Source of the DNA: Anaerolineae bacterium
GTDB taxonomy: Bacteria; Chloroflexota; Anaerolineae; JAAYZQ01
Assembly: GCA_023544525.1 (NCBI GenBank)
Contig: JAMJFU010000003.1
Location: 1 to 54,086 of the forward strand
Direction: 5' to 3'
Length of the DNA: 54,086 nucleotides
Under the pieces are notes generated by a model. That model did not search any database. It saw only the letters and a list, made by a program, of their open reading frames with translations, and was not told the DNA's origin. Below are positions 22,271 through 35,223 of the stretch, in pieces. The translations under genes were made by a program, and so were the position numbers. Positions within the stretch are counted from its first letter, which is position 1. Every line of letters begins with the position of its first letter.

Positions 22271-23682
22271 GAACGCCGTCTGCAGACAAGCCGGCCGAAG
22301 CGTGCGGCGTCTGTGGCATCTATGCGCCGGGCGAACAAGTAGCCCGCCTGGCCTTTTTTGCCCTGTACGCCCTGCAGCACCGGGGGCAGGAGAGTGCTGG
22401 CATCGTCACTTCGGATGGCCGGGTGGCCCACATCCACAAAGGGTTGGGGCTGGTGTCCCAGGTCTTTAACGAGGAGAACGTGCTCTATCTGCAGGGCCAC
22501 CTGGCCATCGGTCACAACCGCTACTCGACGACCGGCGGGTCGCGCCTGCGCAACGCCCAGCCTTACCTGATCGAGACGGCCCTGGGTCCGTTGGGCATTG
22601 CCCACAATGGCAACTTGACTAACGCCCCCGCGTTGCGCCGCGATCTGCTTGACAAGGGCGTGGGGCTGGTCTCGTCGTCGGACAGCGAGGTGATCACCCA
22701 GATGCTTGCCGGATCGCCAGGCGATACCTGGGAGGAGCGCATCGCCGCTCTTATGACGCAGGCACAAGGGGCCTACTCGCTGACGATCCTCACCAGGGAA
22801 GCCGTCTTTGCCGTGCGGGACCCGTTGGGCTTTCGCCCGCTGTGCCTGGGCCACCTGAACGGCAGTGGCTGGGTGGTGGCCTCGGAATCGTGCGCGCTGG
22901 CGACCATCGGCGCGACCTTTGTGCGCGATGTAGAGCCGGGAGAGATCATTCGCCTGGATGAGAACGGCGTGACCACGTGGCGAGGGGCAGAACCGGCCAA
23001 AGAACTGGCCCTGTGCATCTTTGAATACATCTATTTTGCCCGGCCCGACTCGGTACTGGAGGGACATGCCGTCGTTCACCGCGTGCGCCGCCACCTGGGC
23101 GAGCGCCTGGCCGAGGAGCAGCCAGCCGAGGGGGACATGGTCATTGCCGTGCCCGACTCGGCCACGGCCCATGCCATAGGCTACGCCTTCGGCTCGGGCA
23201 TTCCCTTTGGCGAGGGCCTGATCAAGAACCGCTATATCGGCCGCACCTTCATCCAGCCGGACGACCGGTTGCGGCGCCGAGGCGTCGCCCTCAAGTTCAA
23301 CCCTCTGCCTACGACACTTCAGGGCAAGCGCATCGTTCTGGTCGACGATTCTATCGTGCGCGGTAACACCAGCCAGCCGATCGTCGGGCTACTACGGCAG
23401 GCGGGGGCCGCAGAAGTGCACATGCGCATCTGCTCGCCGCCCATCCGCCACCCCTGTTTCATGGGTGTGGATATGGCCACCCGGCAGGAGTTGATCGCCC
23501 ACAACCTGTCCGTGGCGGCGATCGCCCAGCACATCGGCGTGGATAGCCTGGGCTACCTCTCATTGGAAGGTCTGCTGGATGTGGTCGGGCGCGGCGGCAG
23601 CGGGCACTGCCTGGCTTGTTTCTCGGGCAACTATCCCGTGGCAGCCCACTCAGGGACGGGCAAGGCGATGTTCGAGCCGTAG
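22267..23682 (+). CDS. purF: Amidophosphoribosyltransferase
   Basis: Commits PRPP to purine synthesis: PRPP plus glutamine to phosphoribosylamine. 471 residues. The N-terminal nucleophile is probably Cys13 (EACGVCGIYAP), exposed by removal of a 12-residue propeptide. Glutaminase motifs include LQHRGQESAGI, GHNRYSTTGG and IAHNGNLTN. The PRPP loop is KRIVLVDDSIVRGNT. Cysteines at CIFEYIYFARPDS, SPPIRHPCFMGVD and HCLACFSG match the [4Fe-4S] ligands of the B. subtilis type. Coupled to purE by an ATGA overlap. Confidence 0.97.
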   Translation: MRTPSADKPAEACGVCGIYAPGEQVARLAFFALYALQHRGQESAGIVTSDGRVAHIHKGLGLVSQVFNEENVLYLQGHLAIGHNRYSTTGGSRLRNAQPYLIETALGPLGIAHNGNLTNAPALRRDLLDKGVGLVSSSDSEVITQMLAGSPGDTWEERIAALMTQAQGAYSLTILTREAVFAVRDPLGFRPLCLGHLNGSGWVVASESCALATIGATFVRDVEPGEIIRLDENGVTTWRGAEPAKELALCIFEYIYFARPDSVLEGHAVVHRVRRHLGERLAEEQPAEGDMVIAVPDSATAHAIGYAFGSGIPFGEGLIKNRYIGRTFIQPDDRLRRRGVALKFNPLPTTLQGKRIVLVDDSIVRGNTSQPIVGLLRQAGAAEVHMRICSPPIRHPCFMGVDMATRQELIAHNLSVAAIAQHIGVDSLGYLSLEGLLDVVGRGGSGHCLACFSGNYPVAAHSGTGKAMFEP

Positions 23683-23701
23683 GAAAACAAGGGGGAGATC
23701 G

Positions 23702-26032
23702 ATGCGAGTACTGGTCGTCGGTTCAGGAGGGCGGGAACACGCCCTGGCGTGGAAACTGGCCCGGTCACCCAGGGTGGCCAAGCTGTTCGTTGCGCCGGGG
23801 AACGGTGGCACGGGTACCGTGGCCCAGAACGTGCCGGTCCGCGCCGGCGACGTCCCAGCCCTGCTGGCCTTCGCCCAGCACGAGAGGATCGACCTGACCG
23901 TCGTCGGTCCCGAGGCGCCGCTGGTGGCAGGTTTGGTGGATGCACTTGCCGGAGCCGGTCTGCGCGCCTTTGGCCCTAGCGCTGCTGCAGCCCAGTTGGA
24001 GGGCTCGAAGGCCTTTGCCAAGCGCTTCATAGTCGAGGAGGGCATCCCCACGGGTGTGGGCGCCATCTTCAGTGATTATGGGGCTGCGCTGGCCTACCTG
24101 CGCAGCCAGTTCTCTCGTCCTGGGCACGACGGGGGCATTGTGGTCAAGGCCAGCGGCCTGGCCGCGGGCAAGGGGGTCGCTGTCTGCCCGACCTTGGCCG
24201 AGGCGGAAGAGGCGCTGCAGCGGACGATGGTCGAGCGTGTCTTTGGCCCAGCGGGCGACGAGGTTCTCATCGAGGATTGCCTGGTGGGCGAAGAGGCCTC
24301 GCTACTGGCCTTTAGCGATGGGCGGACGGTGGTGCCCATGCCATCAGCCCGGGACTATAAAAGGGCGGGAGACGGCGATCAGGGGCCCAACACTGGCGGC
24401 ATGGGCTGTTACGCTCCGTCTCCCTATGTGCCTGGGGAGATGGTGCAGGAGGTGGTCGCCCGCGTGCTGCAGCCGGCGGTGGACGGCATGCGCCGGCGGG
24501 GCATGCCCTACACCGGTGTGCTCTATGCCGGGCTCATGCTCACCGCGCACGGCCCACGGGTCCTCGAGTTCAACTGCCGTTTTGGTGACCCCGAGACTCA
24601 AGTGCTACTGCCTCTACTGGACAGCGATCTGGTGGATATCTTCCTGGCTTGCATCGAGGGTCGACTGCACGAGCTTGCAGTACGCTGGCAGACGGCGCAT
24701 ACCGTGACAGTGGTCATGGCCTCAGGGGGCTATCCAGCCGCGTACGAGAAGGGCAAAGAGATCCGCGGTGTGGAAGCGGCGGGCAGCCTGGACAACGTCG
24801 TCGTGTTCCAGGCCGGGACGAGGGTCGATGGAGATCGGCTGCTGACGGATGGCGGGCGCGTGCTGGCAGTGACAGCCACGGCACCAAACGAGGTCCGGGC
24901 TCGAGAACGAGCTTATGCTGCTATCGAGCGCATCCACTTTGAGGGCGCACACTTCCGCCGCGACATTGCGCTCCCTAATCCGGACTTGGCCCCAACTTCA
25001 CCCGCTGGCGAGACAGGCAGTGCCTACGCTGACGCGGGGGTGGACATCGAGGCTGGCAACCGTGCTGTAACGCTGATGCGCGAGGCCGTGCGCAGCACCC
25101 ACAGCCCAGCCGTCCTGACCGATATCGGCCTTTTTGGGGGGCTGTTCGCCCTCAGAGAGGCCATACAGGGCCGTGACCCGGTACTCGTGGCCTCTACCGA
25201 CGGTGTTGGCACCAAGACGATGGTTGCGACGGCCATAGGCCGCTACGATACTATAGGACAGGACCTGGTCAACCACTGCACCAACGACATCCTGGTACAG
25301 GGTGCACGGCCACTGTTTTTCCTGGACTATTTCGCATCCAGCGTGCTGGACCCGGAGCAGGTCGCAGCCGTGGTGGCTGGTTGCGCCCAGGCCTGCAAGG
25401 CCATGGGCTGCGCCCTCATCGGCGGAGAAACAGCCGAGATGCCCGGCGTCTATCAGGCCGGCGAGTTTGACTTAGCCGGGACCATGGTCGGCTGGGTAGA
25501 GCGCGAGGAGATCATTGATGGGCGCCATGTCCGCCCAGGCGACGTCTGCCTGGGGCTGCCCTCGTCGGGCCTACACACGAACGGCTTTAGCCTGGCCCGG
25601 CGCGTCCTTTCTGGAGTAGGCTGGCAGACGCGGCTGCCTGAGCTGGATCTGCCTCTGGGCGAGGTCCTGTTGGTGCCACATAGGTCTTACTTGCGAGAAG
25701 TCGAGGCGCTGTGGGCCAAGGGCCTGAGTGTCAGGGCCATGGCCCACATCACCGGTGGGGGTTTTGTGGACAACATCCCCCGCGTGTTGCCCGATGGCGT
25801 GGCGGTCCAGATCGACCGGGCAGCGTGGGAGGTGCCTGCCATCTTTCGCCTGATCCAGGCTCGGGGCGCGATCGCCGAGGTCGAGATGTACCGCGTGTTC
25901 AACATGGGCATCGGCCTGGTGCTGATCCTCGCGCCTGAGGAGACAGAGCCAGCCCTGTCCCTGTTGCCTGAGGCGCTTGTCATTGGCCATACCACGGCCT
26001 GGGATGGCCGAGAGCCCCGAGTTCAGCTCTAG
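23702..26032 (+). CDS. PurD-PurM fusion: GAR synthetase and AIR synthetase
   Basis: One 776-residue protein with two complete enzymes. Residues 1 to about 427 are PurD: VVGSGGREHALAWKLARS, GPEAPLVAGLVDAL, KASGLAAGKGVAV, GGMGCYAPSPYV and EFNCRFGDPETQ. A short linker rich in Pro, Ser and Thr follows (428-440). Residues 441-776 are PurM: YADAGVDIEAGN, STDGVGTKTMVA, NHCTNDILVQGARPLFFLDY, CALIGGETAEMPGVY and AHITGGGFVDNIPRVLP. No stop, frameshift or start with a ribosome site occurs at the junction. The pair would make GAR and later AIR. The start ATG 23702 has GGGGGAG upstream; the frame is open into purF. The arrangement resembles yeast Ade5,7 and the first two domains of animal GART. Confidence 0.95.
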   Translation: MRVLVVGSGGREHALAWKLARSPRVAKLFVAPGNGGTGTVAQNVPVRAGDVPALLAFAQHERIDLTVVGPEAPLVAGLVDALAGAGLRAFGPSAAAAQLEGSKAFAKRFIVEEGIPTGVGAIFSDYGAALAYLRSQFSRPGHDGGIVVKASGLAAGKGVAVCPTLAEAEEALQRTMVERVFGPAGDEVLIEDCLVGEEASLLAFSDGRTVVPMPSARDYKRAGDGDQGPNTGGMGCYAPSPYVPGEMVQEVVARVLQPAVDGMRRRGMPYTGVLYAGLMLTAHGPRVLEFNCRFGDPETQVLLPLLDSDLVDIFLACIEGRLHELAVRWQTAHTVTVVMASGGYPAAYEKGKEIRGVEAAGSLDNVVVFQAGTRVDGDRLLTDGGRVLAVTATAPNEVRARERAYAAIERIHFEGAHFRRDIALPNPDLAPTSPAGETGSAYADAGVDIEAGNRAVTLMREAVRSTHSPAVLTDIGLFGGLFALREAIQGRDPVLVASTDGVGTKTMVATAIGRYDTIGQDLVNHCTNDILVQGARPLFFLDYFASSVLDPEQVAAVVAGCAQACKAMGCALIGGETAEMPGVYQAGEFDLAGTMVGWVEREEIIDGRHVRPGDVCLGLPSSGLHTNGFSLARRVLSGVGWQTRLPELDLPLGEVLLVPHRSYLREVEALWAKGLSVRAMAHITGGGFVDNIPRVLPDGVAVQIDRAAWEVPAIFRLIQARGAIAEVEMYRVFNMGIGLVLILAPEETEPALSLLPEALVIGHTTAWDGREPRVQL

Positions 26033-26111: not shown

Positions 26112-26717
26112 ATGCCACGTATCGCGATTCTGATCTCAGGTTTTGGCTCTAACCAGCAAGCGATCATGGACGCGGCTCAGGAAGGCCGGCTGCCTGGCGT
26201 CGAGGTCGCATTGGTCGTCTCAAACCGGCGGGAGGCATTTGGCATCAAGCGGGCTGTCAAGCACGGCGTGCCTGTCATCTACTTTCCGCTGGCACCATAC
26301 ACCAGGGCCGGGCGAGCCCGTGAGGAGTACGATGCCGACCTGGCCCGCATCATCAGGGCCTTTGACGTCGAGTGGGTGGTCATGGCGGGCTGGATGCACG
26401 TCTGGACTGCGGCCTTCCTGCAGCATTTCCCCTCCAGGGTGGTGAACCTGCATCCGGCCCTGCCGGGCACCTTTCCCGGGATGCACGGCATCGAAGCGGC
26501 ATATGAGGCCTACCAGCGCGGAGAGATCGAGCACACGGGCGTCATGGTCCACCTCGTACCCGACCCAGGGGTCGACGCTGGTCCTGTGGTGGCCCAAGAG
26601 GTGGTGCCCATCCACCCTGACGACAGCCTGGATGAACTGGAAACGCGGATCCACGCTGTGGAGCACCGCTTGCTGGTGGAGGCACTGCGCAGCCTGCTGG
26701 CGAGCGACCCGGGCTAG
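26112..26717 (+). CDS. purN: Phosphoribosylglycinamide formyltransferase
   Basis: Formylates GAR to FGAR using 10-formyltetrahydrofolate. 201 residues. The phosphate-binding loop ISGFGSNQQA, catalytic Asn112 and His114 in VVNLHPALPGTFPGMHG, and Asp155 in GVDAGPVVAQ are present. It lies 79 bases after the PurD-PurM fusion with its own site (GGGGGGA) before ATG 26112, and is the last gene of the cluster. Together with the fusion it gives the GARS-AIRS-GART order of the animal trifunctional protein, here split into two genes. Confidence 0.94.
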   Translation: MPRIAILISGFGSNQQAIMDAAQEGRLPGVEVALVVSNRREAFGIKRAVKHGVPVIYFPLAPYTRAGRAREEYDADLARIIRAFDVEWVVMAGWMHVWTAAFLQHFPSRVVNLHPALPGTFPGMHGIEAAYEAYQRGEIEHTGVMVHLVPDPGVDAGPVVAQEVVPIHPDDSLDELETRIHAVEHRLLVEALRSLLASDPG

Positions 26718-32626: not shown

Positions 32627-33598
32627 TCAGCTGGTCGATGAGTGCTGCCCTTCGAGCTCTTCGCGCACGGTGCGGTACAGTTCGGCGGCCCTGAGCTCCG
32701 CCAGGCAGTAGCATGGTCCACGCAGGGCACGGGCCAGGTTTTTGGCCAGGCCTCGGTCGTAGGCCTCGTGCTCCATATTGACGACCACCGAATGGATGCC
32801 CGTCTGCCCGATCAGGTCGGCCATTCTCTGTGCTTCCTCCTGTGGTGGCGTATCGGTCAACGCTACGTTGCCGGCCCCATCGGTCAGAAGGATCAGCAGG
32901 GGCATGGCCTCTGGGTATAGGCGGAGTTCGCGGCGAAATACGCGATAGGCCATCATGAGGCCCGCCGACAACGGGGTCTTGCCACCCACAGGCAGGTGAT
33001 GCAGCGCTTGCTGAGCCAGCTCTACGCTTGAGGTGAAGGGGAGCACCAGGCGAGCCTCTTCCTTCTGGAAGACAACCAGACCGACGCGGTCGCGCTTCTG
33101 GTATGCGTCGACAAGGAGCGACATGATGGCTCCCTTGGTGGCTTCCATCCGCTGGGCACCGGCCATGCTCCAACTGGCATCCACTACGAAAAGGATGAGG
33201 TTAGAAGCCCGTCGAACGCGTACCTTCTTTTGCACGTCCTGCGGCAGGATGGTGAGCCTGCCTTGCTCTGCTTCTCGCTCCAGCTGCTGGAGGGCAGCCT
33301 GGCGGATGGTCGCGTCGAGGGCAATGTCGCTGAGCTCGCCGTCTGCTGGCCGGGCCTGGATGTACCGGCCCCGCTTGCGGCTTGTTCGGGTGCTGGACCG
33401 CTTTCCGGCGCTGCGTCGTGTCAGCCGGTCCATGGGGGTCTCGAGGCGGCGCGACTTGAACATCTCGCCGATGGGCACTACCATGTCGACCTCTTGTCCG
33501 CTGCCGAGGCCAAGGGGGTCTGTGGACTGCCCTTTAATGGGTGCGCCAGCCCCCCCGGTGTCGATTTCACCGGTTTCCGGGGGCTGGTCATCCGTCAC
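32627..33598 (-). CDS. ChlD-like VWA chelatase region (probably read as -1 extension of ChlI)
   Basis: 323 residues. A Pro/Gly-rich and basic N-terminal part (SAGKRSSTRTSRKRGRYIQA) leads to a von Willebrand A domain with an intact MIDAS: DASWSM, a later LPVGGKTPLSAGL threonine and LLTDGAGN. This is the C-terminal half of magnesium/cobalt chelatase medium subunits. The apparent GTG start at 33598 overlaps the chlI stop (ATGTGA) and has no good ribosome site. A slippery sequence precedes it, so the main product is probably a 695-residue ChlI-ChlD fusion made by frameshifting rather than a separate protein. Confidence 0.85.
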   Translation of the reverse strand: MTDDQPPETGEIDTGGAGAPIKGQSTDPLGLGSGQEVDMVVPIGEMFKSRRLETPMDRLTRRSAGKRSSTRTSRKRGRYIQARPADGELSDIALDATIRQAALQQLEREAEQGRLTILPQDVQKKVRVRRASNLILFVVDASWSMAGAQRMEATKGAIMSLLVDAYQKRDRVGLVVFQKEEARLVLPFTSSVELAQQALHHLPVGGKTPLSAGLMMAYRVFRRELRLYPEAMPLLILLTDGAGNVALTDTPPQEEAQRMADLIGQTGIHSVVVNMEHEAYDRGLAKNLARALRGPCYCLAELRAAELYRTVREELEGQHSSTS

Positions 33599-33607
33599 AT
33601 CTTTTTT
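33546..33607 (-). promoter_or_regulatory. Programmed -1 frameshift signal joining chlI and chlD
   Basis: The chlI frame reads A AAA AAG (33607-33601, inside a run of nine A), then ATG TGA. This is the dnaX-type slippery heptamer in the correct phase. Slipping one base back enters the chlD frame exactly. Thirteen bases downstream an 11-bp GC-rich stem (33587-33577 with 33558-33546, two-base bulge, 18-base loop) could stimulate the shift. Confidence 0.75.
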
Positions 33608-34713
33608 TTTCCAGGCGACGGTTCGACCATGGAGGCGCCCGGCGCTTTTGACTGGTCCGCCTCGCGGCGGGCTTCTTCCAGCCTGTTGGACAGCTCCTCC
33701 ATGCGATTTTCGGTCTCTTGGAACGGCATGCGTTTCAGCCGATGGGGCAGGGCTAGTTCGGCTGCAACGAGGATATCCAGTTGGGTGATTGCCCTCTCTG
33801 TTGCCCCTGTGCCGTTCTGGGCGAATCGCAGCGCTGCGTGGGCCAATGCTGTTTTCAGGATGACGATGTCTGCCCGGTGGCCGTCGACCTCGAAGCTGGT
33901 GGTGAGTTCGGCGATTGTGTACAGATCCTCTGGCTGGTAGGTGACCGAATGCAGGAGCTGGCGGGCACGGCTGATCTCGAGGCCGAGCTGCTCTTCGTAG
34001 GGCTCCCACTCGGCGCGAAAGCCCTCCGGGTCGCTCTCAAACTGGACAGTGCGTTCCAGGATGGCGACCCGGGCTTGGTGCGCTGGGATGCCCTGGATCT
34101 CGACGCACAGGGCAAACCGGTCGAGGAGCTGTGGTCGCAGCTCACCCTCTTCCGGATTCATCGTGCCTACGAGGATAAACCGAGAAGGATGGCCAAACGA
34201 GATGCCCTCACGCTCCACGACGTTGCGACCCATGGCAGCCGAGTCCAGGAGCAGATCGACGACGTGATCGTCCAGCAGGTTCACCTCGTCCACGTAGAGC
34301 AGCCCGCGGTTTGCCGCGGCCAGCACTCCTGGCTCGAATTTTTTCTGACCGGTCTTGAGCGCCGCCTCGATGTCGAGGGTGCCAACAACCCGGTCTTCGG
34401 TGGCACTCACAGGCAGATCTACGAATCGAGTGCGGCGCCGGCCGACCGGCAGGTCCTCGTCCCTGGCCAGGCGCGCGCGGCAATTGTCGCACAGCCGCTC
34501 CGGACGGCGGGGATCGCAGTTGAATGGGCAGTCGGCCACGACCTCGATCTCGGGCAGGAGAGCCGCGAGAGCGCGGGCCGCGGTAGACTTGGCAGTGCCC
34601 CGTTCACCACGGATCAGGACGCCGCCGATCTTGGGACTGATGGCGTTGAGGATCAACGCCGTTTTCATTGTGTCCTGGCCGACGATAGCCGTAAAGGGAA
34701 ATATGACGTGCAT
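33595..34713 (-). CDS. ChlI-like AAA+ chelatase subunit
   Basis: 372 residues. AAA+ ATPase of the BchI/ChlI clade: Walker A GERGTAKST near residue 36, Walker B GLLYVDEVNLLDDHVVDLLLD, sensor region ILVGTMNPEEGELRPQLLDRFALCVE. A four-cysteine set (CPFNC, CDNC; residues 62-80) may bind zinc. It would drive metal insertion into a tetrapyrrole with a ChlD subunit and a large catalytic subunit that is not in this window; cobalt and magnesium cannot be told apart here. The gene ends at ATG TGA right after the slippery A run. It begins six bases after rubrerythrin. Confidence 0.92.
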   Translation of the reverse strand: MHVIFPFTAIVGQDTMKTALILNAISPKIGGVLIRGERGTAKSTAARALAALLPEIEVVADCPFNCDPRRPERLCDNCRARLARDEDLPVGRRRTRFVDLPVSATEDRVVGTLDIEAALKTGQKKFEPGVLAAANRGLLYVDEVNLLDDHVVDLLLDSAAMGRNVVEREGISFGHPSRFILVGTMNPEEGELRPQLLDRFALCVEIQGIPAHQARVAILERTVQFESDPEGFRAEWEPYEEQLGLEISRARQLLHSVTYQPEDLYTIAELTTSFEVDGHRADIVILKTALAHAALRFAQNGTGATERAITQLDILVAAELALPHRLKRMPFQETENRMEELSNRLEEARREADQSKAPGASMVEPSPGKKKM

Positions 34714-34719
34714 GAAGGT

Positions 34720-35223
34720 TTAGAATACCTTGAATCGGTCTCGCTTGGCGTTACAGACCGGGCAGCGCTCGGGCGGCCCGCCAATGTGCGTAAATCCGCA
34801 GACTGGGCAGACATAGATCTCGGAGGCATCGATATCATCACCAGCCTCAGCCGCCTCTTTTGCGTCGGCGTACATGTCGGCATGGATCTTTTCAGCCTCC
34901 ATGGCGTAGGTCATGGTCCGCTCGGCGCCTTTTTCCTCTTGGACTTCAGCCACGGAGAGATAGGCCGCGTACATTTCGTCTACTTCAAAGTTCTCGCCGG
35001 CGATGGCCGCTTCGAGATTGGCGACGGTCTTGCCAACACCGCCTAGCTCCTTGAAATGGTTGATGGCATGCACTTGCTCAGCATGAGCAATCGCCCTGAA
35101 AAGGCGGGTGATGTTCGGTTTGCCTTCCTTTTCCGCCTGGGCAGCAAATGCCAGGTACTTGATGTGTGCCTGGCTCTCGCCGGCTAGCGCGCTCTTGAGG
35201 TTCTCTGTGGTCATTGCCTTCAT
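34720..35223 (-). CDS. Rubrerythrin
   Basis: Non-haem iron peroxidase that reduces hydrogen peroxide in anaerobes and microaerophiles. 167 residues: an N-terminal four-helix diiron domain with ExxH-type pairs (SALAGESQAHIKYLAFA, RAIAHAEQVHAINHF, EVQEEKGAERTM, YAMEAEKIHADMY) and a C-terminal rubredoxin-like domain with CPVCGFTH and CPVCNAKRDRF, the four iron-binding cysteines. ATG 35223 has GAAGGAGA upstream. It sits between a receiver-domain gene and chlI on one strand. This hints at oxygen-sensitive metabolism. Confidence 0.96.
   Translation of the reverse strand: MKAMTTENLKSALAGESQAHIKYLAFAAQAEKEGKPNITRLFRAIAHAEQVHAINHFKELGGVGKTVANLEAAIAGENFEVDEMYAAYLSVAEVQEEKGAERTMTYAMEAEKIHADMYADAKEAAEAGDDIDASEIYVCPVCGFTHIGGPPERCPVCNAKRDRFKVF

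Follow-up and report, generated by a model that had tools for sequence, protein, structure and literature searches.

One chlI-chlD gene, possibly two chelatase-type proteins: a conserved A-run and its frame-independent distribution in Chloroflexota

In the window analyzed here, a 54,086-nucleotide stretch of an Anaerolineae genome (G000; 4.53 Mb in 515 contigs, 91.6% complete), a ChlI-like AAA+ ATPase frame and a ChlD-like frame ending in a VWA domain meet in different reading frames at a run of nine adenosines (A9). Comparison with relatives across the Chloroflexota makes it fairly likely, in our view, that this single gene yields both ChlI and a ChlI-ChlD fusion by slippage on the A9 run, and that RNA polymerase rather than a ribosome shifting to the −1 frame is responsible. 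On the scale of the phylum, the balance tips only slightly towards a broader model, namely a frame-agnostic cassette in which the slipping A-run, and not the frame, would be selected. Most lineages would rely on polymerase slippage on nine or ten A's with ChlD in any frame, some of them as in-frame fusions hiding a short product, and a minority with seven or eight A's would employ −1 ribosomal slippage and a hairpin; the two mechanisms would have been swapped repeatedly, and the products would serve an AAA+/VWA complex lacking CobN/ChlH.

The window locus is organized as follows.

32627..34713, minus strand: whole gene, encoding a predicted 695-residue fusion; best match in NCBIfam, TIGR02442.
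33595..34713, minus strand: chlI frame, a 372-residue AAA+ ATPase and the predicted short product; best PDB match ChlI 6l8d (E 1.1e-100).
32627..33601, minus strand: ChlD half, comprising a linker and a VWA domain with a DASWS MIDAS motif, in the −1 frame relative to chlI; 324 codons plus stop.
33602..33610, minus strand: putative A9 slippage run (T9 on the plus strand) followed by G, with A_AAA_AAA and A_AAA_AAG in phase, as read from the sequence.
33595..33597, minus strand: chlI stop codon TGA, as read from the sequence.
33596..33598, minus strand: candidate separate start of ChlD, a GTG in its frame that overlaps the chlI stop; no Shine-Dalgarno (SD)-like 4-mer.
33546..33587, minus strand: bulged hairpin of 9 bp and 6 bp, 14 nucleotides past the run, detected by folding against shuffles; no counterpart in the nearest relative.

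The chlI frame ends in P-G-K-K-K-M-stop (codons GGA AAA AAA AAG ATG TGA), and the T9 at 33602-33610 is the sole A/T run of at least seven in the entire 54-kb window, which has a GC content of 62%. Past the run, the −1 frame stays open for 324 codons, such that a −1 slip or a single extra A in the mRNA would generate the 695-residue fusion, and both halves are intact, with Walker A and MIDAS motifs present. The initial annotation, which had described the entry of chlI into nine A's, the ATG TGA thereafter, the open −1 chlD frame and the products of 372 and 695 residues, was thus confirmed in the sequence on all of these points. The run combines two kinds of slippery site, since X_XXY_YYZ heptamers (A_AAA_AAA and A_AAA_AAG) lie in the zero frame and its length corresponds to the approximately nine A/T residues of programmed transcriptional slippage. 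Moreover, judged from the sequence, the main junction peptide (G-K-K-K-D) is identical for one extra mRNA A and for a −1 ribosomal slip, and mass spectrometry of the junction therefore cannot alone separate the two mechanisms.

In the model that we favor, RNA polymerase transcribing the T9 tract would release mRNAs whose runs are nine A's long, longer or shorter. Translated in the ordinary way, the nine-A mRNA would meet a stop soon past the run and produce the 372-residue ChlI, while mRNAs with one extra A, or two fewer, would place ChlD in frame and produce the fusion. As slippage of this kind would supply mRNAs for each of the three frames, it would make little difference which one ChlD occupies in the genome, and relatives would be expected to hold ChlD in the −1, 0 or +1 frame with the run kept. 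In lineages with seven or eight A's, the same two products would arise by −1 ribosomal slippage on A_AAA_AAA, helped by RNA structure located mostly 5-8 nucleotides downstream. A joint AAA+/VWA complex of both proteins is a further, presumptive element of this model.

To compare the locus with its relatives, 279 distinct junctions were assembled: 205 from the window's class, 15 more of the same class and 59 from elsewhere in the phylum. The class set was reduced from 239 loci to 205 by dropping 20 duplicates, six loci without one half, two partial or low-identity loci, two with non-adjacent halves and, by subtraction, four without matches; the further set was reduced from 86 to 74 (11 duplicates, one locus without one half). 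Run and frame proportions are not population frequencies, because the loci were drawn from the best-scoring search matches or hand-picked from lists (27 + 80 class places and 60 phylum places). We scored as a run at least seven A's at the junction, with A9+ denoting nine or more and A7-8 seven or eight, and clustered the loci into units at 75% identity (as well as 80 and 85%).

A run was present at 230 of the 279 junctions, most often with nine A's (A7, 38 loci; A8, 10; A9, 154; A10, 27; A11, 1). This is well beyond the chance background: outside the junction, the first 56 loci (232,185 bases) contained 43 A or T runs of length six, five of length seven, one of length eight and none of nine or more. 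Conservation of the run in relatives, which the initial annotation had named as a check, is thereby established. ChlD lay in the −1 frame at 177 junctions, in frame at 96 and in +1 at six, and the run accompanied 176, 50 and four of these, respectively. Among the −1 loci are L124 (A9) and L140 (A7), from records named Anaerolinea thermophila and Thermoflexus hugenholtzii. That the window's arrangement reflects a sequencing error or a decayed gene was considered in view of its origin from a contig of a 515-contig assembly. The relatives render this very unlikely, the least probable of all the explanations weighed here: L002, from another genome of the same family with a 84% identical ChlI, has the same A9 and the same frame, A9 occurs in 124 of the 177 −1 loci, and both halves of the window gene retain their Walker A and MIDAS motifs. 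A case of apparent decay or assembly error was encountered elsewhere, at L010, with an internal TAA in ChlI, no A-run and its halves in −1. Two further loci deserve mention: L083, from a record titled Halieaceae, has a ChlI 63% identical to that of the window and is probably mis-binned, and L060, which was kept, is a second copy from G001, a genome of the window's family, and not an orthologue; this more distant ChlI/ChlD gene also has the A9 and −1 arrangement.

Sorting the junctions by run length revealed two distinct signatures. All 38 A7 runs (9/9 units at 75% identity) begin at codon position 3, as they must for seven A's to yield A_AAA_AAA, and A7-8 runs are followed by G in 48/48 loci (42/42 + 6/6). 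In contrast, A9 runs are spread over codon positions 1, 2 and 3 (17, 10 and 15 units). Predicted RNA structure, evaluated over 50 nucleotides beginning four nucleotides past the run as a z score against shuffles, followed the same division. Downstream of A7-8 runs, the mean z was −2.24, with 75% of loci below −1.5 (n = 48), compared to −0.40 and 15% for A9+ runs (n = 182) and −0.34 and 12% for junctions without a run (n = 49). The contrast persisted by units (12 versus 34; p = 2.4e-5 at 75%, 6.2e-5 at 80% and 4e-5 at 85% clustering), and upstream structure did not differ between the groups (15-17% in all). Where z was below −1.5, the stem started 5-8 nucleotides past the run in 19 of 30 A7-8 loci. 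SD-like 4-mers upstream of the A7-8 runs were not in excess (18/48 versus 16.2 in the control). Overall, A7-8 runs carry a ribosomal signature, consisting of phase lock and adjacent RNA structure, and A9+ runs are unstructured beyond background. As a separate observation, SD-like 4-mers were in excess in the 20 nucleotides before A9+ runs (83/182 versus 53.2 in the control), an excess inseparable from relatedness or from GAG/GAA codons.

These signatures bear directly on the principal alternative, a programmed −1 ribosomal frameshift on A_AAA_AAG or A_AAA_AAA within the A9 run, aided by the hairpin, in which part of the ribosomes would stop to give ChlI and the rest continue into the fusion. 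The heptamers are in phase, A7-8 relatives bear the marks of this mechanism, chlD cases in the literature are presented as ribosomal (in parts of PMC9227772 and PMC5009743), and the window hairpin is strong: its fold exceeds that of shuffled sequences (z −2.74, with 4/200 shuffles equally good; −4.87 and −2.32 with other cuts), and two measures place it third among 153 and 11th among 182 A9+ loci, respectively. The 11-bp stem-loop 13 bases downstream, as originally described, turned out to be a structure of 9 bp and 6 bp around a 5-nucleotide bulge (33546-33587) that starts 14 nucleotides after the run. Conserved stimulatory structures for programmed −1 frameshifting are expected about 5-9 nucleotides downstream. 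The window hairpin lies outside this range and off the spacing mostly seen in A7-8 loci (5-8 nucleotides), it is missing from the nearest relative (L002, z −0.87), and A9+ loci as a group show no structure beyond background. In addition, ChlD occupies the +1 frame at four A9+ loci, beyond the reach of a −1 ribosomal slip, and of the 40 in-frame A9+ loci 29 have an early stop in +1. We consequently regard ribosomal frameshifting as possible for the window but doubtful as its main route; the hairpin may add some ribosomal slippage or may be incidental. Polymerase slippage is the likelier main route because the window belongs to the A9 group of relatives. The hairpin-aided ribosomal frameshift put forward by the initial annotation is thereby not supported in that form for this A9 locus, while its more general proposal of two products from one locus, through slippage on a run that is conserved and with a separate chlD start improbable, is retained.

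The third line of evidence comes from the 50 loci that possess a single long open frame and nevertheless keep the run. In 49 of these, the −1 frame meets a stop within 10 codons, compared to 15.7 expected from local stop density. Under the favored model, A9+ runs would feed all three frames and A7-8 runs only the −1 frame, and the early stops followed this expectation: within 10 codons, the −1 frame was closed in 39/40 A9+ loci (13.6 expected) and the +1 frame in 29/40 (6.5 expected), whereas among the A7-8 loci −1 was closed in 10/10 (2.1 expected) and +1 in only 1/10 (1.0 expected). The 46 in-frame loci without a run showed no excess of early stops (−1, 10 versus 8.8 expected; +1, 3 versus 7.7 expected). 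A particularly uniform group is family f71 (L286-L296, L304 and L305), which is likely Chloroflexus/Roseiflexus-like, its name having been deduced by us: 13/13 of its in-frame fusions keep A8-10, with a −1 stop 1-5 codons later. The in-frame stop test is weaker than its counts suggest because few lineages (4 units) account for the in-frame loci with A7-8, and 7/10 of these loci have near-identical junctions.

Frame and run length have also changed repeatedly. Parsimony on one quick ChlI tree required no fewer than 22 frame changes among the 230 run-bearing loci and no fewer than 14 switches between the A7-8 and A9+ classes. In a pair with 98% identical ChlI sequences, L012 has an A10 run with ChlD in frame and L113, one A shorter at the run, has A9 with ChlD in −1; L229 (−1) and L234 (in frame), 96% identical in ChlI, share an unchanged A9 and differ by a 2-nucleotide indel beside it. 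Unless slippage supplied both products, each such flip would abolish one of them. Independence from codon phase and genomic frame, as anticipated for transcriptional slippage, was found across the relatives, with A9 runs in all phases and A9+ runs in three frames, although A10 runs are skewed. The L012/L113 pair is at the same time what one would look for under DNA-level phase variation, in which run length would change within a population and switch the fusion on or off with no slippage at the RNA level. We consider this explanation highly improbable, given that run length peaks at nine throughout the phylum (154 of 230 run loci), that L229 and L234 flip frame beside an intact run, and that the A7-8 loci are phase-locked and structured.

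Only marginally better is the chance, likewise slim, that no slippage occurs and that ChlD is made as a separate VWA protein from its own GTG, translationally coupled to the chlI stop. The GTG does overlap the chlI stop in the window, as first reported, and the accompanying statement that it lacks a good ribosome site was borne out insofar as no AGGA, GGAG or GAGG lies 4-16 nucleotides upstream. Coupling is opposed by the relatives: between 60 nucleotides before and 30 nucleotides after the chlI stop, 146 of 176 −1 run loci have no start in the ChlD frame, and of the remainder 29 have a start without an SD-like 4-mer and one has a start with one. The nearest relative lacks the GTG. Furthermore, coupling has no need for the run and leaves the in-frame relatives that keep it unexplained.

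Several observations weigh against polymerase slippage as the general route, or soften the division between the run classes. Freedom of phase is by itself compatible with ribosomal slippage, because a run of nine A's contains an in-phase A_AAA_AAA wherever in the codon it starts, and the skew of A10 runs to codon position 2 (10/15 units) is not explained by phase-free slippage. Among the structured A9+ loci, 13/35 have a stem starting 5-8 nucleotides past the run, and the strong window hairpin could stimulate ribosomes despite its distance. A tree-paired structure test gave the expected direction (3.5 versus 0.3 of 9 pairs) but was underpowered, significance being unreachable. Counted by units, in-frame +1 closure was 8 early and 3 late for A9+ versus 1 early and 3 late for A7-8. 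Where ChlD lies in −1, a +1 stop within five codons is frequent in A7-8 loci too (21/33, and 94/122 for A9+), and +1 closure therefore discriminates between run lengths solely among the in-frame loci. Of the four run loci with ChlD in +1, three belong to a single family (f42) and may result from faulty assembly.

The same caution applies to the relation between the run and a second ChlI gene. None of 20 control loci (L306-L325), picked for genomes with two ChlI matches and in 19/20 cases holding both in the fetched stretch, had an A-run. Even so, the run is absent from 10/205 class loci and from 16 hand-picked loci outside the class in genomes with one ChlI match (E up to 1e-90). Conversely, 8/13 family-f71 genomes have another ChlI match yet keep the run in the compared locus, as do 5/60 class relatives with a second match (G001, G004, G033, G041 and G045). 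The link between a second ChlI and run loss is hence not strict, and slippage, as judged from the 49 junctions without a run, would be common but not universal. Families f69, f65 and f118 (L278-L285 and L274-L276) comprise in-frame fusions without an A-run and with one ChlI match per genome.

With regard to function, both halves of the window gene are sequence relatives of magnesium-chelatase ChlI/BchI and BchD (PDB 6l8d, 8osf, 1g8p and 2x31). The fusion scores higher against TIGR02442 (putative cobaltochelatase) than against BchD and matches that model over nearly its full length, at 766.5 bits, which is narrowly below the curated cut-off of 779.45 and does not support membership. Unlike in magnesium chelatase systems, CobN/ChlH (PF02514) had no match in G000, at its completeness of 91.6%, and G000 thus lacks a match to the large subunit by which CobNST/ChlIDH-type chelatases are recognized; the cobalt chelatase label used by the initial annotation is doubtful on this account. 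In G000, no separate small-subunit gene was found, the ChlI search having otherwise matched just a 530-residue PF01078 open reading frame (E 6.9e-5), likely of YifB/ComM type.

Among 60 relatives, ChlI was matched in 56 and CobN/ChlH exceeded the cut-off in five; across the class, ChlI was matched in 347 of 396 genomes (E up to 1e-80). Of the five genomes with CobN, three (G004, G041 and G045) encode a second, different ChlI no more than a few kb away from CobN, and the compared gene therefore need not serve CobN even there. The precorrin-8X isomerase CbiC (PF02570) was found in 4/60 relatives and not in G000, so that B12 synthesis is not favored. No gene family adjoins chlI-chlD in most of the 75 loci with flanks (window included): the neighbor family spanning most clusters occurs in 24/75 loci, and the 16 most widespread neighbor families all exclude the window.

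Frameshifted chlD (fs-chlD) genes have been described before. In 2013, 23 frameshifted magnesium-chelatase genes were reported from six genera including Herpetosiphon, and three chlD cassettes tested in E. coli changed frame at 63% (11 A's), 40% (nine A's) and 10% (seven A's); the section concerned does not separate polymerase from ribosome (PMC3711429). A Chloroflexi and a spirochaete case without a large subunit were published in 2022, with Brevefilum fermentans (Chloroflexi) and similar organisms, which have neither a large subunit nor a chlorophyll or B12 pathway, put at the start of the family, and the role of a ChlI/ChlD pair without a large subunit was stated there as an open question (PMC9227772). 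The remark that chlD frameshifting was already known is thus correct (PMC9227772, PMC3711429), including for Chloroflexi without a large subunit (PMC9227772), even if the attribution to cobalt chelatases is questionable here. The basic idea was already published for relatives, and the new part is the phylum-wide pattern. Like the fs-chlD genes of Antonov (2013, 2020) and Kuznetsov (2022), the window has adjacent ChlI- and ChlD-like frames, a −1 transition at a conserved A-rich site where they overlap, and one gene for the small and medium subunits. Unlike in the portions of that work covered here, the present set contains relatives that retain the run with ChlD in frame or in +1, a split between A7-8 and A9+, and flips between near-identical genes; the fs-chlD literature covered, to which Antonov 2020 does not belong, yielded no description of in-frame chlD genes that retain a slippery run.

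A second precedent is dnaX, in which one gene likewise yields a short and a long product (tau/gamma), through ribosomal slippage in Escherichia coli and, in Thermus thermophilus, through slippage of the polymerase on nine A's, with the reversed arrangement in fewer bacteria (parts of PMC5009743 and PMC1088944). By analogy, slippage at the window A9 is likelier to resemble that of T. thermophilus dnaX (PMC1088944, PMC5009743). Unlike dnaX, the present case concerns a different protein and brings both run types and three frame arrangements together in one gene family of one phylum. If the model holds, plain annotated ChlI-ChlD fusions conceal a second product, and a single family would offer a natural series in run length, phase, structure and frame for the trade-off between polymerase and ribosome slippage, a contrast best known from dnaX (PMC1088944, in part). 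It would also provide a comparative route to recognizing protein-shortening slippage, which the survey in PMC1088944 calls, in the part considered, difficult to predict by comparison. Finally, the question of what a ChlI/ChlD pair does without a large subunit (as raised in PMC9227772) would be sharpened, with ChlI widespread and CobN/ChlH in few relatives.

Additional features of the window were noted. A rubrerythrin gene (34720-35223, minus strand) lies directly upstream of chlI in the same orientation, its end six nucleotides from the chlI start, and the two may form an operon. Rubrerythrin was absent from the recurring neighbors across the 75 loci and was, in view of that neighborhood comparison, discarded as a functional clue. 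Elsewhere, a single 817-residue open reading frame (23579-26032, plus strand) carries PurD (GARS) and PurM (AIRS) domains and is followed by a PurN-type formyltransferase open reading frame (26112-26717, plus strand); the order PurD-PurM-PurN is that of the domains in the eukaryotic trifunctional purine enzyme.

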